A DNA stretch of 64,000 bases, taken from NCBI RefSeq assembly GCF_002733955.1, contig NZ_NVXQ01000003.1, positions 62,001 to 126,000 of the forward strand, read 5' to 3'. Of the stretch, positions 45,779-56,391 are shown one piece after another (position 1 is the stretch's first letter; each line of letters begins with the position of its first letter). The DNA comes from Hoeflea sp. (lineage in GTDB: Bacteria > Pseudomonadota > Alphaproteobacteria > Rhizobiales > Rhizobiaceae). The translations under genes and the position numbers were made by a program. Below the pieces are notes generated by a model, which was not told the DNA's origin, made no database searches, and saw only the letters and a list, made by a program, of their open reading frames with translations.

Positions 45779-46939
45779 ATGAGTGAAGCTCCGCAAGCAA
45801 GCCTGCTGGCACTCAATTGCGGCTCGTCCTCGATCAAGTTCGCGCTGTTCACACCTGACTTCGAGCGCAGTTTCTCCGGCCTGGTCGAAGCGATAGGCCA
45901 CGGCCAAACCCCGAGACTGAAAACCTCGGCCGGTGAAACCGGGCAGTTTGGCGGCTCCGATCAGACCCATGCCGATGTCCTGCCGCGTTTGATCTCCGAC
46001 ATCATCCTGCCGCGCGCAGGCGCGATCTCCGGCGTCGGCCACCGCATTGTCCATGGCGGTGAACGGTTCAACGCTCCGATCAGGATCGATCCGGACATTC
46101 GCGCCGGCATCGCCGAGCTCACACCCCTGGCGCCGGGGCACCAGCCGCACAATCTGGCTGGCATCGATGCCGCCACCCGGGCCCTGCCCGGCGTTCCCCA
46201 GATTGCCTGCTTCGACACCGCCTTTCACGCCACTGTTCCCACAGTCCGGCGCGAAATGCCGCTGCCACGCCATTACGCCCGGGACGGGCTGATCCGCTAC
46301 GGTTTTCACGGCCTGTCCTATGAGCATGTCGCCGCCAACCTGGCCAGTCTCGGATTATCGGGAAAACGGGTGATCGCCTGCCACCTCGGCAATGGCTGCT
46401 CGATCTGCGGCATGATGGACGGCGCAAGCGTCTGGACATCGATGGGCTTTACCCCGCTTGATGGTCTGATGATGGGCCAACGACCCGGACGGCTGGATCC
46501 CGGCGCGGTGCTCTGGCTCATCGAGCAACATGGCGGTGACATCGCAGCCGTCAGCAAGCTGTTTTATCACCAGAGCGGCCTGTCGGGCGTCTCCGGCCTG
46601 TCAGGCGACATGCGCACCCTGCTGGCCAGCGACCAGCCCGATGCCGCTTTCGCCGTCGAAATGTTTGTCGACCGCCTGGTCCAGGAAATCGGCGCGGCGG
46701 CAGCTGGTCTTGGTGGCGTCGATGCCATCGTCTTTTCCGGCGGCATCGGCGAGAACGCCGCACCGGTCCGTGCCATGACGTTGCAGAAACTGGAATGGCT
46801 GGGTTTCAACCTCGATCCCGAAGCCAACACAACGCGCACCAAACGCCTGACCATGGCAGAGAGCGAACGTCAGGCTTTTGTCGTCGCGGCCGATGAAGAG
46901 CGCATCATCGCACAGGCGACAGCCCACTTGTTGGGCTGA
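45779..46939 (+). CDS. ackA: Acetate kinase
   Basis: This 386-residue ASKHA-fold kinase interconverts acetate + ATP and acetyl phosphate + ADP. It shows LALNCGSSSIKFALF (phosphate 1), VGHRIVHGGERF, CFDTAFHATVP, RYGFHGLSYEHV, HLGNGCSICGMMDGASVWTSMGFTPLDGLMMGQRPGRLDPG and FSGGIGENA (adenosine motif). The region is not linked to a pta gene; in rhizobia ackA may work with phosphoketolase, which would fit pentose use by xylAB, but no such gene is seen here. Propionate kinase is a close alternative. Confidence 0.92.
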   Translation: MSEAPQASLLALNCGSSSIKFALFTPDFERSFSGLVEAIGHGQTPRLKTSAGETGQFGGSDQTHADVLPRLISDIILPRAGAISGVGHRIVHGGERFNAPIRIDPDIRAGIAELTPLAPGHQPHNLAGIDAATRALPGVPQIACFDTAFHATVPTVRREMPLPRHYARDGLIRYGFHGLSYEHVAANLASLGLSGKRVIACHLGNGCSICGMMDGASVWTSMGFTPLDGLMMGQRPGRLDPGAVLWLIEQHGGDIAAVSKLFYHQSGLSGVSGLSGDMRTLLASDQPDAAFAVEMFVDRLVQEIGAAAAGLGGVDAIVFSGGIGENAAPVRAMTLQKLEWLGFNLDPEANTTRTKRLTMAESERQAFVVAADEERIIAQATAHLLG

Positions 46940-46946
46940 GCAAGTG

Positions 46947-47345
46947 CTATTGCCAGTTGCCTGACAGCGCGCGCAACAAATCCGAGCGGCTGATCTGGCC
47001 GACCAGACGGCCTTCCGACATCACCGGAAAGCGCCGGAAGGAACTGGCCAGAAAGGCTTCCGCCGCTTCGACCAAATCGAGATCCGCATCCAGGGCTTCC
47101 GGCCGGTCAGACATGTAATCGGCCACCGTATCGCCCCACTCCCGGTAATAGCTCGCGTGCAAGGCTGCCTTCAGGCAATCCTTCTGCGACAGCATGCCGA
47201 CCAGGTTCGCGTTCGCATCGAGCACCGGCGCGCCGGAAATCTTATTGTCGATCAGCAGGTTCATCGCCCGGTTGATTTCCATTTCCGGCGTCAGCGTGAT
47301 CAGCTCGCGGGTCATATAGGTCTTGATGCGGGGCCGCCCACTCAT
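46947..47345 (-). CDS. Two-CBS-domain protein coupled to the nqr operon
   Basis: This 132-residue protein is a CBS domain pair: YMTRELITLTPEMEINRAMNLLIDNKISGAPVLDANANLVGMLSQKDCLKAAL and YMSDRPEALDADLDLVEAAEAFLASSFRRFPVMSEGRLVGQISRSDLLRAL. CBS pairs sense adenine nucleotides or NAD(H)-like ligands, or act as regulatory subunits. Its ATG shares one base with the nqrM stop (TGATG), so it is translated with the nqr/apbE/nqrM genes. A role in regulating the complex is inference. Convergent with ackA with a 7-nt gap. Confidence 0.85.
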   Translation of the reverse strand: MSGRPRIKTYMTRELITLTPEMEINRAMNLLIDNKISGAPVLDANANLVGMLSQKDCLKAALHASYYREWGDTVADYMSDRPEALDADLDLVEAAEAFLASSFRRFPVMSEGRLVGQISRSDLLRALSGNWQ

Positions 47346-47503
47346 CAGCCCCGCCCCTTGCGGCAACCGCTGCAGGACAGCCCGGTGGCGCAGGCCAGCC
47401 CGCCGCAGGATCCCTTGAGCGGCGCCCGTCCGAAGATGACACCCAGGGCCAGCCCGATCACGGACAAAAGAACCAGTCCAAATGCGAGCAGAAAAGTCTC
47501 CAT
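47345..47503 (-). CDS. nqrM: NqrM-like Na+-NQR maturation protein (DUF539)
   Basis: This 52-residue protein has one membrane helix (FLLAFGLVLLSVIGLALGVIF) followed by a Cys-rich tail with CGGLAC and CSGC, the pattern of NqrM, which is needed to build the Fe centre shared by NqrD and NqrE. AGGAGG precedes ATG 47503. It sits right after apbE, the place nqrM has in other nqr operons. It is too short for usual ORF cut-offs and is easily missed. Its stop overlaps the CBS gene start. Confidence 0.9.
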   Translation of the reverse strand: METFLLAFGLVLLSVIGLALGVIFGRAPLKGSCGGLACATGLSCSGCRKGRG

Positions 47504-47515
47504 CGTCTGTTCCTC

Positions 47516-48481
47516 CTATGCGCTCATGTAAGCGTCAAAACCACCGGTGATGATTTCGTGGCTGCCGTCGCTCTCGAGCCGGGCAAACAGGGCCGGAATG
47601 GCATGCGCCTCTGCAAAGGCGGCCCCGTGCTCCATGCCCATCACCATCAGTGCTGTCGCCAAACCGTCCGCACGCATAGCGGTGTCAGCCAGAACCGACA
47701 CCGAAGCCGGCACCGCATCAACCGGACGCGCAGTGTACGGGTTAATCAGGTGGCTGACTCCGCTCTTGCCGAGGTTGATATTCTGCCGTCCCGTTCCCGA
47801 TGTCGCCAAGGCCATTTTGCCCGGCGCCACGATGTGCGCCATCTCGTCCTGCGCGGCATCAGGGCGTTCGATGCCCACCTGCCAAGGCCTGCCGTCAGGG
47901 TGATGACCGAGCGTGCGAACCTCGCCGCCGAGCTCGATCAATGCAGCCTCGACGCCGACAGACGGCAAGCCATCCATGATCCGATCGAGCGCATAGCCCT
48001 TGGCGATCCCGCACAGATCCAGCGTCAGGCCCGGTGCCTGCTTGCGCAATCCGTAGGAACAAACGGAAAGATCCTCAGGCCTTGCCTGCGCTCCATGAAT
48101 TGGCCCGAAACCGAACCGGTTGACCACAGGACCAACGGTCGGATCAAAAGCGCCTCCGGTCAACCGGGACATCTCGAGTGCGTGCTCTGCGACCAGAGCA
48201 AGCGGCTCGGAGCATCGCTGCCAATCGAGGGTCTCGGTGCGATTGAAAACGGAGAGTTCCGACTGCGCCAGATAGGGCGACATCGCCTGATTGATCTCGG
48301 TGACGATGGAGGCAACCAGCTTGCGCACCGCTTCTGATCTGCTTGCTTCCGGCAAGGCCGCACGCCAGCTGCTGCCGAACGCCGGGCCGCCGACAGCTTT
48401 GGTCCCGGCAGATGCCGGACGCAGGCTCAATGCCATCGCACCGGCACCGGCCAAAAGGAAATTGCGTCGCGTCATCGCCAT
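47516..48481 (-). CDS. apbE: FAD:protein FMN transferase (ApbE)
   Basis: This 321-residue periplasmic enzyme attaches FMN to threonines of NqrC/NqrB-type proteins. It starts with a twin-arginine signal (MTRRNFLLAGAGAMALS) and has the ApbE core LDLCGIAKGYALDRIMD and ATSGTGRQNINLGKSGVSHLINPYTARPVD. It is slightly short but complete. It lies 3 nt after nqrF and 12 nt before nqrM, inside the nqr operon. Confidence 0.92.
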   Translation of the reverse strand: MAMTRRNFLLAGAGAMALSLRPASAGTKAVGGPAFGSSWRAALPEASRSEAVRKLVASIVTEINQAMSPYLAQSELSVFNRTETLDWQRCSEPLALVAEHALEMSRLTGGAFDPTVGPVVNRFGFGPIHGAQARPEDLSVCSYGLRKQAPGLTLDLCGIAKGYALDRIMDGLPSVGVEAALIELGGEVRTLGHHPDGRPWQVGIERPDAAQDEMAHIVAPGKMALATSGTGRQNINLGKSGVSHLINPYTARPVDAVPASVSVLADTAMRADGLATALMVMGMEHGAAFAEAHAIPALFARLESDGSHEIITGGFDAYMSA

Positions 48482-48484
48482 GGC

Positions 48485-49705
48485 TCAGACTCCAAAATCA
48501 TCTGTGAAGATATGGGATTTGTCGACACCGGCATCATCCAGCATCGCCAGCACGGCGCGGATCATCAAGGGCGGGCCGCACAGGTAGTATTCGCAGGCCT
48601 CCGGAGCCGGATGATCCTTCAGGTGATTTGCCCAGGCCACCATATGCACGAACCCGGTGCTGCCCTGCCAGTTGTCTTCCGCGCGCGGATCCGACAGCGC
48701 CACGGTCCAGTCGAAATTCGGGTGCCTTTCAGCCAGCGCATCAAACTCGTCCTGATACGGCAGATCACCCTTGTTGCGGGCGCCATACCAATAAGTCAGC
48801 CGACGCTTGCTGCCGGCCCGTTCCAGCTGGTCGAAGATGATGGCGCGCAAAGGCGCCATGCCGACGCCCCCGCCAATGAACACCATCTCCGCTTGCCCAG
48901 GCTGGGCCCGGAAACTGCCGAAGGGCCCTGACGTGTCGACCTGATCACCCGGACGAAGTGAAAACAGCCACGACGATACCACGCCCGGCATCGCACCGGG
49001 AACCGATGGCGGTGGCAGAGCCAGCCGGATATTGAGCACGATCCGCCCCGCTTCGGTGTCTTGCGGACGGTTGGAAACCGAATAGGCCCGGGTCACCGGT
49101 TCCGAGCTTGAAACCTTGAGCGCGCGCAGATTTTGCCAGACGTCCTGGTGTTCGACGGGCACATCGATATCCGCATAATCCCGCTTGAATGCCGGAGCCG
49201 TCACCTGCACAAACGAACCAGCTTCGATATCGGCTCTCATGCCGTCGGGCTGACGCAGGACAATCTCGCGGATAAGTGGTGTGAGTGCGGTCACGCTTTC
49301 AACAGTGCAGACGAATTGCTCCGCTGACATCAGATCATTGTCGACCTCGACATCCATATCGCCGCGCATCACCACCTGGCAGGCAAGATGAACATTGTCG
49401 CGAAGATCGACCTTGGTCAGCCGCGCAGCTTCCGTCGGCAGGGGCGCCGCGCCGCCCTTCAGGATCTTCACCCGGCACAGCCCGCAGGTGCCGGCGCCGG
49501 CACAGGCCGACGGGATCAGGATGCCGTTGTCCTGTAACGCATTCAGGAGTTTTCCACCGGTGCGCGTGTCGAATTGGCTCGCCCCGTTGACGGTCAACAC
49601 AGCAGGGCGAGAGGGAGACAAGAGCGATCGCGCCATCATTACCGTCAAGGCAAGCAGCACAATGATGGCCGTCAGCAGCGAAATACCAAGAACAATCTCT
49701 GTCAT
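48485..49705 (-). CDS. nqrF: Na+-NQR subunit F, NADH dehydrogenase flavoprotein
   Basis: This 406-residue subunit takes electrons from NADH. It has an N-terminal membrane helix, a ferredoxin [2Fe-2S] domain with [18 protein letters not shown] and HLACQV cysteines, a FAD domain (RAYSVSN) and an NADH domain ([24 protein letters not shown]). All expected cofactor motifs of NqrF are present. Its start overlaps nqrE by 4 nt. Confidence 0.95.
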
Positions 49706-50301
49706 GGTGTCACCAGAGCAAAGGCCGAGAAGCCAAGCGACATCAACCCGGTGACGATGAAGGCGCTGGCGAGCCCCTCCACCCCTTTGGGCATGTCGCT
49801 GTATTTGAGCCGTTCGCGGATGGCTGCAAAGGTGATAATTGCCAGCGCCCAGCCGATCCCGCTGCCGATCCCGTAGACGACCGACTCCTCGAAATCATAA
49901 TGCCGCTCGACCATGAACAGGCTGCCGCCGAGAATGGCGCAGTTGACGGTGATCAGCGGCAGGAAGATGCCGAGCGCCCGGTAGAGCCGCGGCACGAACC
50001 GGTCAAGCGTCATTTCCAGGATCTGCACCATCGCTGCAATCACACCGATGAAGCTGACCAGCTTGAGGAAGGTCAGGTCGACCTCCGGCAATCCGGCCCA
50101 GGCCCATGCGCCTTCCAGCAACAGCATGTTGAAGATCAGGTAGTTGACCGGCACGGTAATAGCCTGGACGACGATCACCGCGAGCCCCAGACCGAAGGCG
50201 GTATCGACCCGCTTGGACACGGCCAAGAAGGTGCACATGCCGAGAAAGAAGGCCAGCGCCAGGTTTTCCTGGAAGATGGATTTGATCAGCAGCTCGCTCA
50301 T
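49702..50301 (-). CDS. nqrE: Na+-NQR subunit E
   Basis: This 199-residue membrane subunit has six hydrophobic segments. The two cysteines that bind the intramembrane Fe centre together with NqrD are present in [11 protein letters not shown] and [11 protein letters not shown]. The start at 50301 ([16 protein letters not shown]) is the family start; the frame is open upstream inside nqrD but is ignored. Overlaps of 4 nt with nqrD and nqrF. Confidence 0.94.
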
Positions 50302-50951
50302 GGCCGGCGATCCTCCGACGTGCGCAGCCGGAATTCCGGTTGCTCCACCTGCTCGGGACGCATGGCCCGAACGAGCCAGACCAGAAGCCCGAGAATGAAA
50401 AACGCGCTTGGCGCCAGCTGCATCAGGCCCAGCGGCTGGAACCAGCCGCCATCGGCCGCGGTGGTCACCAGCGGCACACCCATCAGAGCGCCGGTTCCGA
50501 GAAACTCGCGCAACGCCCCGACAATCAGCAGCACCAGACTGTAACCGAGACCATTGCCAAGCCCGTCCACGACGCTCGGCAGCACCGGGTTGCGCATGGC
50601 GAAGGCCTCCGCCCGTCCAAGCACCAGGCAGTTGGTGACAATCAGCCCTACAAAGATCGACAGCCTCTTGCTCATCTCGAACATGAAAGCCTGCATGAAC
50701 TGATCGATCACGATGACGATGGAAGCCACGATAGTGATCTGGATGATCAGCCGGATCGAGGGCGGAATGTGATGCCGCATCAGGCTGATCACGCCGTTCG
50801 ACAGGCACAGCACCACGGTCAGCGCCACCGACATGGTGATCGCGGTCGACAAGGTGGTCGTCACCGCCAGCGCCGAGCAAATGCCCAGGATCTGCAGCGT
50901 GACCGGGTTGTTGCCGATCAAGGGGGCGGTGAGATGGTGGTGAAGCGACAT
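50298..50951 (-). CDS. nqrD: Na+-NQR subunit D
   Basis: This 217-residue membrane subunit has six hydrophobic segments and the two metal-binding cysteines of the family, in [12 protein letters not shown] near residue 25 and [16 protein letters not shown] near residue 107. With NqrE it carries electrons across the membrane. It starts 1 nt after the nqrC stop. Confidence 0.94.
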
Positions 50952-50952
50952 G

Positions 50953-51753
50953 CTAGAGCCCTTCCTGCCGAAGCCGGGTCAAAAACGGGCCGAACCCCTT
51001 GTCCCCGAGCCAGAACCGCAAAAGATTGGTCATCCCGGTGCTGGTGCGCGTGGCGCCGGAAATGCCGTCGACCTCGTAAGGTGTCGATGCCCCGCCGCGC
51101 ACCAGTTCGATGCGAACGGTCCCGGTCTCATCGGCGAATTTCTTGCCGGGCCATTGCGCCAGCCAGTCCGGTTCCTCGATCCGGGCACCGAAACCGGGCG
51201 TGTCCCCCTGCTCGACAATCGCCAGCGCCGCAATCGTGACCAGATCCGCCTCGATCGCCAGCGCCGCCTGGAGGGTGGACTGATAGCCCGCACCATAAAC
51301 CGGCAGCACGATCAGCATCAGCTCACCGTCCTTCTGCAGCAGATAGACCGGCGATTGATTGGCACGCCGCTTGATGCCGGCGATATCTGCGTCAGGCTCC
51401 AGCGCGATGCTCGCCTCCGCATCCTGAAGCGCGGCATCGAGATCAAACGCCGCTGAGTCCTCGCTGCTGGCGAAACTGCCGTCATCAAGATTGACCAGCC
51501 GGGTTTCCAGCGTGTCGACCCCGGTTTCCATCATCAGGTCGCGCATGCCCGGCAGAGTATCGAGCATCTTGTCCATGCGGGCCTGCTGCTCTGCGGCCCG
51601 ATTGGCCTCCTGATAGGGCTTCAGCATGACCGCCGTGACCGAGACGGCCGCGGAAGAAACCAGCGCCACCAGCACGGCCATGCCGATGATCTTGACCAGG
51701 TCGTCGTTGGACCGCGCGAAGAATTTGCGAATTGGCGAAAACACCTCAGCCAT
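50953..51753 (-). CDS. nqrC: Na+-NQR subunit C, covalent FMN subunit
   Basis: This 266-residue subunit has an N-terminal membrane helix (VKIIGMAVLVALVSSAAVSVTAVML) and a periplasmic FMN-binding domain. The C-terminal motif DGISGATRTSTGMTNLLRFW matches the ApbE flavinylation site, with the acceptor Thr at about residue 235, and the ending KGFGPFLTRLRQEGL is typical. So this FMN site is intact. The start overlaps nqrB by 8 nt. Confidence 0.94.
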   Translation of the reverse strand: MAEVFSPIRKFFARSNDDLVKIIGMAVLVALVSSAAVSVTAVMLKPYQEANRAAEQQARMDKMLDTLPGMRDLMMETGVDTLETRLVNLDDGSFASSEDSAAFDLDAALQDAEASIALEPDADIAGIKRRANQSPVYLLQKDGELMLIVLPVYGAGYQSTLQAALAIEADLVTIAALAIVEQGDTPGFGARIEEPDWLAQWPGKKFADETGTVRIELVRGGASTPYEVDGISGATRTSTGMTNLLRFWLGDKGFGPFLTRLRQEGL

Positions 51754-52564
51754 GCCGCGCCCTCCGTCGCCTGACGATCAGGGCCACCGCCATGTGATCG
51801 ATCAGCGGTGCAAAGAGGCTGGCAAGAAGCGAGGCAAACACCACCGCAGCCGGAGCCACAACGGGGCCGGCGGCGGTATCAAACAGCACGATCAGCACCC
51901 CGGCCAACAGACCGAACACCACGCGGCCCGGATTCGTCGTCGCTCCCGCGACCGGATCGCTGATCAGGAAAACCATGCCGAACACTGCCGTGATGGCAAC
52001 GCTCGGTAAACTGCTCGCACCATCCTGAATCAAACCGGCGATGATCAGAACCACAGTGACGGAAACAAGTATTCGCCAGGAAACAAGTCCGCCGGCAAGA
52101 AGCAGAACCAGCCCCGGCAGCGTCGCCAGCGCCATGATCTCGCTGCTGCTGGCAAGCTCGGTTCCGGTAAAGAAAAACACAAGGAATCCGGCAGCCGCCG
52201 CGGCACCCGAAACAATGCCGTAGCCCCGGCCGCCAAACACCAGTTCGCCAAATACGACGCCAAGGCTGACAGCCACAACGATCTGCCAGACGGGAATTGA
52301 TGCGGGCACCAGCACCGCAAAAATCAGCGCCACGGTTGCAGTATGTAAACTCAGTGGCCGGCCACGGATCAGACCGAACGCCAGTTCCCAGATCAGGCAG
52401 GTGACAACAGCGGTCAGCAACACCGCAATTTGCGGCGTCCCCCGCTCCACCAGGCTCACGGCCACGGGTGCCGCCAAAGCGATGAGTTGCGCAACCGTCA
52501 CCCGCGCCGGTGTCCACCCGGAACGTTGCCGCATGCGGAACGGATCGAGGGTCCAGCCGGTCAT
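51746..52564 (-). CDS. nqrB: Na+-NQR subunit B-like membrane protein, short form without the FMN loop
   Basis: This 272-residue NqrB/RnfD-family protein aligns with the C-terminal two thirds of NqrB (usually about 410): ALIFAVLVPASIPVWQIVVAVSLGVVFGELVFGG, LLAGGLVSWRILV and FGMVFLISDPVAGATTNPGRVVFG are conserved blocks. The first ~100 residues of typical NqrB are absent. So is the periplasmic loop with the flavinylated SGAT motif: ASSSEIMALATLP directly follows the GFLVFFFTGTEL helix. The FMN-accepting Thr is therefore missing. No frameshift is visible and the gene overlaps both neighbours, so it looks functional. Confidence 0.88.
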   Translation of the reverse strand: MTGWTLDPFRMRQRSGWTPARVTVAQLIALAAPVAVSLVERGTPQIAVLLTAVVTCLIWELAFGLIRGRPLSLHTATVALIFAVLVPASIPVWQIVVAVSLGVVFGELVFGGRGYGIVSGAAAAAGFLVFFFTGTELASSSEIMALATLPGLVLLLAGGLVSWRILVSVTVVLIIAGLIQDGASSLPSVAITAVFGMVFLISDPVAGATTNPGRVVFGLLAGVLIVLFDTAAGPVVAPAAVVFASLLASLFAPLIDHMAVALIVRRRRARHG

Positions 52565-53829
52565 GCGTCCTCCGCCAGTTCATCAAGCACGTGACGCAGC
52601 ATCCGGCCATAATCGGCCCCGCTGCTGCAAGCCATCGAGACGGCGGCGACATCTTCCTCGACCATCTCAAGGCACCCCAGACGGCTGGCGGTTTCCGCAT
52701 CACCGACACTCAGCGCCCGCAGGAACGGAACGACCGGAACACCAAAAGCCAGCGCCCACTCCAGGGCGGCAGTCGGGATCAACGGTGCAGGTTGCGATGA
52801 AGTCCGACGAAACAGCCCCATCAGGCCGCCCTTTGAAATCCTGCTCTGAGGCGCGACATCGTCGAGCAGTGTGATCTGCTGGTGATAGCGCCCCAGCCAG
52901 GAAGCCTGGCGCCCATTTGTCAGCGAGCCGGAAACGACACAGAGCGGCGAGCCATGATTGCCCGGCAAAGTTTCCTCGCGGATCAGTTCCTGCAAATTGG
53001 CGCCGGCGATGGTCCTGATCAGCCTTGGCTGCCTGGCGCGCGGCCCTGCCAGAGCGGCGATCCGGCTGAAGTCATGAATTCCGGTCTCGATCAGCTTGCC
53101 GATCGCGGCCACATCCTGATAGCCGATGCTCCAGACCGACCGGTTCTGATCGACCGGATGCAGCCGGTGAATATGGGTTCCGCTCAGACCGGAAGCCTGG
53201 CTTTCTGGAAAGAACGATCCACGGATACGGTCACCGCATCCCGCGGCGAGATCCGTGCCCGGGGTCTGGCAGACATGGACCGTTCCGCTGGTCAGATGCG
53301 CGATGGCTTTCAGTCCCGCCGGAAAAGCATCGCCTTGATCCCGAAGCACCACTCTCGGATCAGGTGCATGCGGGTTGTCGGGGGTCACGTTTACAAAAAT
53401 GGCCTCCGGAACCGCATCGGGTGCGGGAATGCGGCCATAGGGGCGGGTCAGAAAGGCCGGCCAGAATCCCTTGGCGAGAAGCGTTTCGCGTATCTCGTCC
53501 GGGCTTGTTGCCACGCTGGTCGGATCCGGCTCGTGTTGATCGGGCTCTAGTCGGATGACCAGTGCCGACAAGCTGCGCCGCGGGCCGAGCGTGATCGTGT
53601 CGACAACCCCGGACACCGGGGAAACAAAGACCACCTCCGGATTGGCGCGGTCATGAAACAAAGCCAGCCCTCGCCCGACCCGGTCACCCTGTGCGCATAG
53701 CAGTTTTGGCCGAAGCCCCGGCAGATCCGCTCCCAGCAACGCAACCTGCGTCACTGCAGCACCCTCTTCGACCCTTTGTTCGGGACGCCGCGCATGGTCA
53801 ATTATCAAGCCGGGCAACACTGTCGACAT
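52561..53829 (-). CDS. nqrA: Na+-NQR subunit A, divergent
   Basis: This 422-residue peripheral subunit shows the NqrA N-terminus (VALLGADLPGLRPKLLCAQGDRVGRGLALFHDRANPEVVFVSPVSGVV) with its lipoyl-like fold and the family blocks AIFVNVTPDNPHAPDP, SGTVHVCQTPG and LGCLEMVEEDVAAVSMAC. The segment after that Cys reads SSGADYGRMLRHVL, not the CPGK-type sequence I recall for Vibrio NqrA. ATG 53829 is used; a GTG lies one codon earlier. First gene of the operon; its stop overlaps nqrB by 4 nt. Confidence 0.9.
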   Translation of the reverse strand: MSTVLPGLIIDHARRPEQRVEEGAAVTQVALLGADLPGLRPKLLCAQGDRVGRGLALFHDRANPEVVFVSPVSGVVDTITLGPRRSLSALVIRLEPDQHEPDPTSVATSPDEIRETLLAKGFWPAFLTRPYGRIPAPDAVPEAIFVNVTPDNPHAPDPRVVLRDQGDAFPAGLKAIAHLTSGTVHVCQTPGTDLAAGCGDRIRGSFFPESQASGLSGTHIHRLHPVDQNRSVWSIGYQDVAAIGKLIETGIHDFSRIAALAGPRARQPRLIRTIAGANLQELIREETLPGNHGSPLCVVSGSLTNGRQASWLGRYHQQITLLDDVAPQSRISKGGLMGLFRRTSSQPAPLIPTAALEWALAFGVPVVPFLRALSVGDAETASRLGCLEMVEEDVAAVSMACSSGADYGRMLRHVLDELAEDA

Positions 53830-53922
53830 CACCTTGTTCGTTCCGGCCTGAGAATTCCTGCATCAAGCCAAGTCCTGAATTGGTTGGTGCTTGAACCCTA
53901 GCAGCACAAAACACCCCCGCCA

Positions 53923-53936
53923 TTGAGCCAGATCAA
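53923..53936. promoter_or_regulatory. FNR/FixK-type anaerobox between nqrA and the pentaheme cytochrome gene
   Basis: TTGA-N6-TCAA is a perfect dyad (TTGAGCCAGATCAA), the consensus for FNR/FixK/Anr regulators. It is centred near 53929.5, about 41 nt before the predicted cytochrome start, which is class II spacing. A similar distance towards nqrA is possible, so both units may be induced by low oxygen. Confidence 0.75.
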
Positions 53937-53957
53937 TGCAGTGTTTCGCCCGGGCCT

Positions 53958-53963
53958 CATAAT
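53958..53963 (+). promoter_or_regulatory. -10 element of the pentaheme cytochrome promoter
   Basis: CATAAT differs from TATAAT at one position and lies 21 nt after the anaerobox, placing the transcript start near 53970 and leaving about 62 nt before the GTG start. No -35 box is apparent, as expected for an FNR class II promoter. Confidence 0.6.
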
Positions 53964-54032
53964 CAGAAGAAAAAACAAGCATCCAGAATTGCCGGTTGAA
54001 CCCAATCTGACTGAACTGCTGGAGGACCCGAC

Positions 54033-55118
54033 GTGTTTTACTTTCGCCTAGCCTTGCCCATCATGTCTCTGATTTTCATCGCCATTCCGGCGGCTCAGGC
54101 GCAGGATCAATCCCCTGTCACCTCTATCGTCGAAAGCTGGATCGCTTCTCCGCATGGTGATCGGACATCCGAAGCCTTCGTACATTGGAACGAGGACGGC
54201 GCCGTGCCGCAAGATTGCGCCACCTGCCATTCCGGTCCCGGCCTGATGGATTTTCTCGGCGCTGACGGATCCCTGGCCGGCAAGGTCGATGCCCCCGCAC
54301 CAACCGGTTCGCCGATCGACTGCGTTGCCTGCCACAACAAGTCTGCGGCAGAGCTCGAACAGATTACCTTCCCCTCAGGCGTTGTCATGACCGAGGCCAG
54401 CCCTTCGGCCATCTGCATGGTCTGCCACCAGGGCCGCGCCTCGAGCGACAGCGTCAACGCGGCCATCGCCGGCGCTGATGACGACTCCATCAACGGCGAG
54501 CTCGGCTTTATCAATGTCCACTACGCCGCTTCCGCAGCCACCATGTTCGGCGGCGCCGTGCGCGGCGGCTACCAGTATGACGGCAAGACCTATGCCGAGC
54601 GGTTCGCCCATGTGCCGGATTTCAACACCTGCACCACATGCCATGATCCGCACACCACCAAGGTGGTCGCGATCGACCAGTGCAGCACCTGCCACCAGGG
54701 CGCGGAAACGGTTCGCGATATCCGCATCACCCCGGCCGACATCGATGGCGATGGCGACACCAAGGAAGGCATTCGCGCCGAGATCGAAAGCCTGCACGAG
54801 AAACTCGGCGAGGCCGTCATGGTCTATGCCAAGGAGGTCTCCGGCAAGGCAATCGTCTATGATGCCCATGCCTACCCCTATTTCTTCAATGATCTGAATG
54901 AGAACGGTGCGGCCGACCCCGACGAGGCCAAGTTCCCGAACCGATACCAGAGCTGGACGCCGCGCCTCCTGCGCGCTGCCTACAACTACCAGTTCCTGGC
55001 CAAGGAACACGGTGCCTATGCGCACAATCCGCGCTACGCCATCCAGCTCGCCTATGACAGCCTCGAGGATCTGTCTTCCAAGGCCGCGGTTGATATGGCG
55101 GGCATGACCAGGCCTTGA
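54033..55118 (+). CDS. Periplasmic pentaheme cytochrome c
   Basis: This 361-residue protein has a Sec signal (hydrophobic stretch ending PAAQAQ) and five CxxCH heme sites: CATCH, CVACH, CMVCH, CTTCH and CSTCH, spread over about residues 65-225. Further histidines (SPHGD, NVHYAAS, FAHVPD, DPHTTK, EHGAYAH) could be distal ligands. A calcium-loop-like DIDGDGDTKEG and DLNENGAADPDE follow. The start is GTG with GGAGGA 7 nt upstream. It is divergent from nqrA across an FNR-type site, so it may serve as periplasmic electron acceptor or relay. Electron partner unknown. Confidence 0.9.
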   Translation: MFYFRLALPIMSLIFIAIPAAQAQDQSPVTSIVESWIASPHGDRTSEAFVHWNEDGAVPQDCATCHSGPGLMDFLGADGSLAGKVDAPAPTGSPIDCVACHNKSAAELEQITFPSGVVMTEASPSAICMVCHQGRASSDSVNAAIAGADDDSINGELGFINVHYAASAATMFGGAVRGGYQYDGKTYAERFAHVPDFNTCTTCHDPHTTKVVAIDQCSTCHQGAETVRDIRITPADIDGDGDTKEGIRAEIESLHEKLGEAVMVYAKEVSGKAIVYDAHAYPYFFNDLNENGAADPDEAKFPNRYQSWTPRLLRAAYNYQFLAKEHGAYAHNPRYAIQLAYDSLEDLSSKAAVDMAGMTRP

Positions 55119-55215: not shown

Positions 55216-56391
55216 ATGGAAAATGCTGAAGTTCTGGTCGCCATCGGCATTCTCTTTCTCGCCGGGCTGCTGCTCGACAAGATCGGCCGGATTGTCCATG
55301 TCCCCCGCGTCACTTTGCTGATCCTGCTGGGCGCACTGCTTGGCCCGCCAGTGCTTGACCTGCTGCCGCACAGCTTCAACGAATCCAACGAGTTCTATGC
55401 ACCCACGGCCTTGACCATGGTGGCCTTTCTGCTTGGCGGCACCCTCAACCCCTCAACCCTGAAAGCCCAAGGCCGCGAAATCATGATCATCTCGCTGACC
55501 CTGGTCGCAGTATCCGTGGCGGTGGTGTCGGCAGGGCTGTGGCTGATCGGCCTGCCGGTCGCCATCGCGGTGCTGCTCGGCGGACTGTCTGCGGCGACCG
55601 ATCCCGCCGCCACCCATGATGTGATCACCCAGACCGGCGCCAGGGGACGGTTTGCAGGCAACCTCCTCGGCATCGTCGCCATCGATGATGCCTGGGGCCT
55701 GCTGGCCTTCTCCGGAGCCCTCACCATTGCCGGCATGCTGATGGACCAGGACGCGATGGTGGCCATGCTGCATGGCGCGCGTGAGGTAGGCGGCGCAATT
55801 GCGCTCGGGCTCGCGATCGGCTTGCCGGCTGCTTTTCTGACCGGACGAATCAAACCCGGGGAACCGACCCTGATCGAAGCCTTGGGGCTAGTCTTCCTGT
55901 GTTCCGGTCTTGCCTTGTATTTCGGTTTTTCGTTTCTGCTCACAGGCATGGTCTGTGGCGCCACGATCGTCAATCTCGCCCGCCATCACGAACGGCCCTT
56001 CAACGAGATCGAACGGATCGAGTGGCCCTTCATGCTGCTGTTTTTCGTCATGGCCGGCGCATCGCTGGAAACAGCCAACCTGGCCGGAATCGCTTACATG
56101 TGCGCGGCTTATTGTGTCTTGCGGGCGCTGGCCCGGCTGCTCGGCGGCTGGATTGGCGGACGTCTGGCCGGGCTGCCGCCAACCGAAAGCCGCCTCACCG
56201 GTCTGGGCCTGATGCCCCAGGCGGGCGTGGCCATCGGCATGGCGCTGGTCGCCAGCGAACGCTTCCCCACGATGGCAGAAGATCTGCTCGCTGTCGCAGT
56301 CGCTAGCACCATCGCCTTTGAAATCATCGGCCCGTTTCTGACCCAGATCGCCCTACACAGGGCTGCCAATGCAGAAGCAATATCAGACTAA
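55216..56391 (+). CDS. CPA2-type cation/proton antiporter (Kef/NapA-like)
   Basis: This 391-residue membrane protein has about 12 hydrophobic segments and the CPA2 transport core LSAATDPAATHDVI followed by VAIDDAWGLLAFSG, whose adjacent Asp-Asp pair is the ion-binding site of electrogenic Na+/H+ antiporters. It has no TrkA-type nucleotide-binding tail, unlike full KefB/C. It is downstream of the cytochrome gene and near the Na+-NQR operon, so it probably exchanges Na+ (or K+) for protons. Confidence 0.88.
   Translation: MENAEVLVAIGILFLAGLLLDKIGRIVHVPRVTLLILLGALLGPPVLDLLPHSFNESNEFYAPTALTMVAFLLGGTLNPSTLKAQGREIMIISLTLVAVSVAVVSAGLWLIGLPVAIAVLLGGLSAATDPAATHDVITQTGARGRFAGNLLGIVAIDDAWGLLAFSGALTIAGMLMDQDAMVAMLHGAREVGGAIALGLAIGLPAAFLTGRIKPGEPTLIEALGLVFLCSGLALYFGFSFLLTGMVCGATIVNLARHHERPFNEIERIEWPFMLLFFVMAGASLETANLAGIAYMCAAYCVLRALARLLGGWIGGRLAGLPPTESRLTGLGLMPQAGVAIGMALVASERFPTMAEDLLAVAVASTIAFEIIGPFLTQIALHRAANAEAISD

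Follow-up and report, generated by a model that had tools for sequence, protein, structure and literature searches.

Where do the electrons go in an Nqr complex whose NqrB subunit lacks the sites through which they would ordinarily return to the quinone pool? The question is raised by a locus at positions 46,947 to 55,118 of a 64,000-nucleotide stretch of Hoeflea sp. DNA (assembly GCF_002733955.1, contig NZ_NVXQ01000003.1, positions 62,001 to 126,000; hereafter "the window"). The genes nqrA-nqrB-nqrC-nqrD-nqrE-nqrF-apbE-nqrM-CBS run in this order along the minus strand and thus encode the six subunits NqrA–F together, and a gene for a pentaheme c-type cytochrome lies opposite on the plus strand, one upstream region being common to both. 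All of the genes named in the initial annotation, which was made from the DNA letters alone, were found with open frames and in the order it gave. It proposed that electrons from reduced nicotinamide adenine dinucleotide (NADH) leave through NqrF, NqrD/E and the flavin mononucleotide (FMN) of NqrC to the cytochrome, and from there to a periplasmic or external acceptor. We consider it probable that this is an Nqr with its outward half intact and its return half cut away, which would send NADH electrons to the periplasmic pentaheme cytochrome.

The return half is the place to begin. In the ordinary complex, as the sections of PMC12174285 available to us describe it, electrons pass from the FMN of NqrC to the FMN of NqrB, then to riboflavin and on to quinone, whose site is formed by two N-terminal helices of NqrB; the accessible part of PMC10643135 also describes this quinone site and is the source of the riboflavin ligands named below. 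Set against the solved structures, the window NqrB aligns to V. cholerae NqrB 131–217 and about 262–413, and the stretch between these blocks, which contains the FMN-binding loop, is without an equivalent in it, as is most of the N-terminus. The loop is gone in all 13 short NqrBs of an alignment with 9 long ones, and in a larger alignment of 78 NqrBs it measures 4–7 residues in the 54 short sequences versus 41–50 in the 24 long ones, with nothing intermediate. Once 7 same-genome duplicates are removed, the FMN threonine is present in none of the 47 distinct short NqrBs, all of which are gapped at the column of Thr236, versus 24/24 long ones; for the quinone-site Phe160 the corresponding figures are 0/47 and 22/24. 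Structure comparison and alignments thus bear out the claimed loss of the NqrB FMN site, and the known return path to quinone is, as far as the alignments go, cut in the short NqrB, because both the FMN site and the N-terminal quinone-site helices are gone.

A shortening by sequencing error or gene decay was considered and rejected: the frame is open, the same loop is missing from all 54 short sequences (47 distinct), and their NqrC proteins form one clade. This clade, which holds all 53 short-type rows (support 100/99), comes from a tree that is independent of NqrB, its rows being trimmed to the last 265 residues of NqrC. In profile terms the window NqrB, at 93.4 bits, falls below the NCBIfam nqrB cut-off of 349.9 and above the Pfam cut-off; PF03116 is its only Pfam match, and no NAD-binding domain (PF00175) is fused to it. 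A possible intermediate was seen in locus L016 (genome G228), where an NqrB of about 376 residues combines the FMN motif YAGAT with a shortened N-terminus and NqrC branches beside the short-type clade.

The subunits of the outward half keep their cofactor motifs. NqrC, NqrD, NqrE and NqrF exceed the NCBIfam TIGR cut-offs for their families, and NqrA, at 293.9 bits, lies under its cut-off of 321.05 and above that of Pfam. Across the 13 short-NqrB loci, the [ST]GA[ST] FMN motif of NqrC, two cysteine columns in each of NqrD and NqrE, and the cluster motif of NqrF are retained in 13/13. The DGISGAT motif of the window NqrC agrees with the earlier claim that its putative periplasmic FMN site is kept. 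NADH would accordingly be oxidised at NqrF, by flavin adenine dinucleotide (FAD) and then a [2Fe-2S] cluster, and from there the [2Fe-2S] cluster of NqrD/E would carry the electron across the membrane to the periplasmic NqrC, whose FMN would be attached by ApbE. In an ordinary Nqr it would continue to the FMN and riboflavin of NqrB and then to ubiquinone; here the NqrC FMN would hand it to the pentaheme cytochrome, since NqrB has neither an FMN site nor the known quinone site. The cytochrome might then reduce a small periplasmic substrate itself or pass the electrons on. The source genome also has a gene for the complex I subunit NuoD, so that the need for another NADH:quinone reductase is not evident.

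How firmly the cytochrome belongs to this system can be read from its distribution. An NqrB-like match was found in 34 of 297 genomes from the order, and in 13 of these, the window genome included, the NqrB is short. The cytochrome occurs in 14 of the 297: in 12 of the 13 genomes with short NqrB, in none of the 21 with another NqrB-family protein, and in 2 of the 263 without an NqrB match (12/13 versus 2/284, Fisher p 1.5e-18, relatedness uncorrected; 11/12 without the window genome). Among the 21 others, which include G214 (truncated where its contig ends) and G014 (divided between two contigs), the loop was read directly in L016–L023 and L025–L032, and the rest were classed by match pattern and frame length. 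Besides the window, the order has 12 loci with short NqrB; nqrA–F, apbE and the CBS gene are present at all of them and nqrM at 10, and at 11 the cytochrome is linked (10 divergent, 1 downstream), the twelfth being that of G244. In a sample of 385 genomes of the class we found two further short NqrBs, one linked to the cytochrome (G546) and one without it (G411), and the cytochrome was not found in the 10 other NqrB-family genomes of that sample, two of which (G298, G562) are, judged by look, RnfD-like rather than NqrB. The operon of G411 (L151:6429-14412) has no recognisable nqrA and no pentaheme protein; two genes away from it, past what by look is a gene for alanine dehydrogenase, there is a tetraheme cytochrome of the Paired_CXXCH type. 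The short-NqrB systems are, by these comparisons, a family. The initial annotation had suggested looking for co-occurrence in other genomes and had taken a lack of conserved linkage among relatives as evidence against it; the two co-occur, and the linkage was found to be conserved.

Three side observations concern these loci. Next to the CBS gene of G244 (L038:3877-5134) is a gene for a protein of the Nitroreductase family whose N-terminus looks Tat-like, a possible alternative acceptor. Pentaheme cytochrome copies at L049:9168-10523 and L050:8653-9813 stand in genomes without an NqrB match, with no evident membrane partner near. The CBS-pair protein of the window (46947-47345) accompanies the short NqrB in each of the 12 other loci.

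A further comparison concerns what stands beside the cytochrome elsewhere. A scan of genome contigs with a cytochrome profile gave at least 534 matching stretches, of which we used the best 80. An nqr operon with NqrB adjoins the cytochrome in 39 of these; it is divergent in 32, co-directional and upstream in 4, and downstream in 3. The absence of the NqrB loop is visible in 38 of the 39, NqrB being truncated in L091 where the contig ends. In 26 others the cytochrome is adjoined by a protein of about 490 residues on the opposite strand, related to that of L101, whose Pfam matches (Pfam was run on this one of the 26) are Ferric_reduct, FAD_binding_8 and NAD_binding_1; a more distant relative lies 3.4 kb from the cytochrome in L062, and no ferric-reductase-type gene above 200 bits was found in the stretches examined around the 39 Nqr loci. 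ApbE adjoins the cytochrome in L099 and L100, followed in L099 by a PepSY-flavodoxin-NAD fusion, a NapC/NirT protein lies near it in L128, and L118 has a cytochrome b561-type protein. At the remaining 10 loci no partner was seen or contig ends lie close by. The choice of partner varies even under one genus name: L116 (Hoeflea sp. MAG-81) has the ferric-reductase type, and L051–L053, L109 and L112, also named Hoeflea, have Nqr.

Ferric-reductase/NOX-type proteins are generally taken to pass electrons outward from NAD(P)H, which argues for an outward direction in the Nqr-type loci too. The exchange of Nqr for a NOX/FRE-type NAD(P)H oxidoreductase therefore lends independent support to export from NAD(P)H, and the wiring of the first hypothesis, from NADH through NqrF, NqrD/E and NqrC-FMN to the cytochrome, appears well supported by conserved linkage and partner exchange together. 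The view that the linkage reflects shared ancestry only, for which the Fisher tests do not correct, is weakened, though not removed, by the three layouts in which the Nqr-type loci occur.

The region between nqrA and the cytochrome gene carries the box TTGAGCCAGATCAA, in keeping with the shared FNR-type site of the initial annotation. Its pattern, TTGA-N6-TCAA, which we take to be the FNR motif, is conserved in most divergent nqrA-cytochrome regions, with exact matches in 36 of 43 (33/39 distinct) and in 15 of 26 ferric-reductase-type regions, against a background of 0.9% in control windows (n = 3,320) and 0.2% in shuffles (n = 3,450). The module is thus probably controlled by an FNR/DNR-type regulator, FNR and DNR/NNR sites being indistinguishable here.

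Both findings bear on whether the chain might run inward, a periplasmic donor reducing the cytochrome and the complex using an ion gradient to pass the electrons to NAD+. For the related Rnf complex reverse operation is possible, according to the available sections of PMC12174285 and PMC4014512, and a Na+/H+ exchanger homologue lies near 16 of the 39 Nqr-type loci versus 0 of the 41 other loci of the best 80 (p 1.4e-6; 12/27 versus 0/27 among loci of at least 19 kb), a correlation that suits an ion-pumping complex in general. The alternative partners, however, namely the ferric-reductase/NOX-type proteins and the PepSY-flavodoxin reductase, belong to families generally taken as outward-directed, and FNR-type control fits respiration, so that we regard an inward chain as quite improbable.

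Several observations weigh against export to the cytochrome. The best 80 loci are not a random sample. The ferric-reductase-type cytochromes form one clade of the cytochrome tree (97 in the Shimodaira–Hasegawa-like approximate likelihood ratio test), and that exchange may therefore have happened only once. In G244 the short Nqr occurs with no pentaheme cytochrome, and G102 and G161 carry the cytochrome without an adjoining Nqr. NqrA, which would have no evident part in such export, is retained in all 39 Nqr-type loci and absent only in G411. Most of the riboflavin ligands are kept in the short NqrBs (Gly198 in 47/47, Asp346 in 46/47, Phe342 in 44/47, Ala205 in 40/47 and Thr162 in 38/47), which may thus still carry a flavin.

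The riboflavin ligands and NqrA lead to a different account, in which the complex is still an NADH:quinone reductase, the NqrC FMN reducing the NqrB riboflavin directly and quinone binding at a remodelled site, with the cytochrome a co-regulated anaerobic neighbour. Direct contact between an extracytosolic FMN and a non-covalent flavin site has been proposed, in the part of PMC11334425 available to us, for Nqr/Rnf-like complexes without the NqrB flavinylation site. The predicted fold of the window NqrB (mean predicted local distance difference test score, pLDDT, 89.7; template modelling (TM) score 0.71–0.78 to NqrB/RnfD) also appears to be retained. This account has nevertheless to do without the N-terminal quinone-site helices and Phe160, and the riboflavin ligand Asn200 is kept in only 8/47 short NqrBs and replaced by Gly in 36/47. 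Also against it, 12 of the 13 genomes in the order with short NqrB have the cytochrome, which elsewhere stands beside a NOX/FRE-type partner. We therefore hold a surviving quinone reductase to be unlikely, and return to export with the question of what the cytochrome does with the electrons.

In 36 cytochrome sequences the five CXXCH motifs and exactly five further histidines (H41, H163, H193, H207, H331) are invariant, and heme 1 is bound by CXXCH in 36/36 and not by the CXXCK of NrfA; the signal peptide was judged by eye. The first PDB match of the predicted structure (pLDDT 88.3) in Foldseek is OcwA (E 0.004, TM 0.42), NrfA-type proteins being weak matches and none reaching E 0.001. A profile search of PDB sequences ranks NrfA (E 1.7e-4) about level with a nine-heme cytochrome (E 2.5e-4), the PF02335 score of 16.6 bits falls below the cut-off of 24.1, and no PF02335 match was found in the source genome at E 1e-20. 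Profile alignment with five NrfA sequences (Prob 94.7, 246 columns) nevertheless brings hemes 1–5 into register in order, pairing the heme 1 motif CATCH with CWSCK (with similar flanks), H193 with H275 and H331 with H393. As controls, E. coli NrfA alone scores 65.9 (211 columns), a NapC-like protein 90.9 (120 columns), NrfB 76.6 (13 columns) and a tetraheme protein 53.3, so that NrfA stands out from the control multiheme proteins by the span of the alignment and not by score. What we presume to be the catalytic residues of NrfA are not retained at the aligned positions. A plain c3/c7 protein, for which the Pfam matches are above cut-off, was set aside; alignment span and the OcwA fold match are, after the control, suggestive of a divergent NrfA relative. 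An Anaerolineae metagenome-assembled genome (L120:136-2301) encodes a 721-residue protein with ten CXXCH motifs that resembles a fusion of the pentaheme cytochrome with a second copy of itself.

If the relation to NrfA holds, the chain could end at the cytochrome, which would act as a terminal reductase and not as a carrier. OcwA, in the available text of PMC6703420, is NrfA-related, has two penta-coordinated hemes and reduces nitrite slowly. The whole might be an energy-conserving NADH:multiheme-cytochrome c oxidoreductase, a half-Nqr pumping ions in its outward half and feeding a pentaheme, possibly NrfA-like, reductase that bypasses the quinone pool; this fuller picture we put forward tentatively, and with clearly less confidence than export as such. 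Somewhat more doubtful still is the variant in which export is the same and the cytochrome does no more than carry electrons to an acceptor in the outer membrane or outside the cell. Its closest PDB fold, as predicted, is a cell-surface reductase, OcwA, and the five invariant histidines outside the CXXCH motifs could make all five hemes bis-His. Against such extracellular electron transfer, neither an MtrB/PioB match nor a second PF14537 cytochrome was found in the source genome. The outer-membrane conduit was accordingly dropped as a candidate, and the external acceptor allowed for in the initial annotation finds no support there. Clustering of neighbours within 6 kb, which was confined to the 43 non-Nqr loci, likewise gave no further widely shared gene, several of the large clusters resembling antisense shadow open reading frames.

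Whether ions are pumped in Nqr/Rnf at NqrB or at NqrD/E is still disputed, according to the available sections of PMC12174285, and in a natural Nqr whose NqrB lacks the FMN and quinone sites the two halves come apart, so that the question can be put to a direct test. The gate residues F338 and F342 of NqrB are kept in 36/47 and 44/47 of the short forms. If our reading is right, the locus connects NADH with periplasmic reduction independently of quinone in alphaproteobacteria, of which many bear the names of marine or soil genera. It also points to an uncharacterised cytochrome family, with at least 534 matching stretches, whose inner-membrane electron donors are exchangeable.

The features of the locus are collected in Table 1. 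The source genome (4.86 Mb in 40 contigs, completeness 100) has NQR2/RnfD/RnfE family matches only at the window nqrB, and the nearest named relatives of its cytochrome, among the matches listed, are from Hoeflea alexandrii (80–81% identity). The small gene before the CBS gene has no NCBIfam match and is presumably nqrM, a name we give it for its cysteine pattern and position. An acetate kinase gene (PF00871, window 45779-46939) adjoins the operon and also lies within 10 kb of the cytochrome in L051–L053, L070 and L109.

Table 1. Features of the nqr–cytochrome locus, in window coordinates.
Feature	Position	Strand	Remark
CBS-domain pair protein	46947..47345	-	operon end
nqrM-like small membrane protein, 52 aa	47345..47503	-	cysteine pattern and place
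apbE, FAD:protein FMN transferase	47516..48481	-	Pfam ApbE
nqrF	48485..49705	-	[2Fe-2S] motif, FAD and NAD domains
nqrE	49702..50301	-	both conserved cysteines retained
nqrD	50298..50951	-	both conserved cysteines retained
nqrC	50953..51753	-	putative covalent FMN motif DGISGAT
short nqrB, 272 aa	51746..52564	-	without FMN-Thr loop and N-terminal quinone-site helices
nqrA, 422 aa	52561..53829	-	slightly under NCBIfam nqrA cut-off
FNR-type site TTGAGCCAGATCAA	53923..53936		between nqrA and cytochrome gene
pentaheme c-type cytochrome, possibly NrfA-related	54033..55118	+	five CXXCH; GTG start, in-frame ATG at 54063 possible
Na+/H+ exchanger family protein	55216..56391	+	adjoins cytochrome gene

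The initial annotation took the arrangement to be undescribed, and a full-text search of the open-licence literature, as far as its texts were accessible, indeed returned no description of an FMN-less NqrB in a six-subunit operon or of an Nqr–pentaheme cytochrome pairing. With the Na+-NQR of the V. cholerae type the system has in common the six subunits, ApbE and the cofactor motifs of NqrF, NqrD/E and NqrC; it differs in an NqrB without the FMN-Thr loop and quinone-site helices, in the multiheme cytochrome gene that usually lies near, and in the complex I gene also present. The cytochrome can be aligned collinearly with NrfA over five hemes and two distal histidines, and its best fold match, OcwA, is itself NrfA-related (PMC6703420, available text). 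Unlike NrfA, however, it has CXXCH in place of CXXCK at heme 1, is about 120 residues shorter, lies below the Pfam cut-off and has a profile score only modestly above those of other multiheme controls.

An NqrB/RnfD-like domain without the flavinylation threonine is also found in the two-subunit NQR/RNF-like systems, for which the accessible parts of PMC8238504 and PMC11334425 propose one-way export from NAD(P)H. Those systems, as described there, are fusions of NqrB with a NAD domain, accompanied by an FMN-bind protein, whereas here NqrA, NqrD, NqrE and NqrF are retained and input would be through NqrF and NqrD/E. The nearest analogue is the Rnf of Methanosarcina acetivorans, which, in the available sections of PMC11024163 and PMC12174285, is paired with the multiheme cytochrome MmcA, so that the pairing of a multiheme cytochrome with Rnf is already known in that organism. 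In both cases a relative of an ion pump is paired with a multiheme cytochrome able, or here predicted, to carry electrons outward. MmcA, by the same sources, is a heptaheme, OTR-related protein that works with Rnf in an archaeon; the cytochrome described here has five hemes and stands beside what would be an NADH-driven Nqr, with NqrA and NqrF, that lacks the FMN of NqrB.

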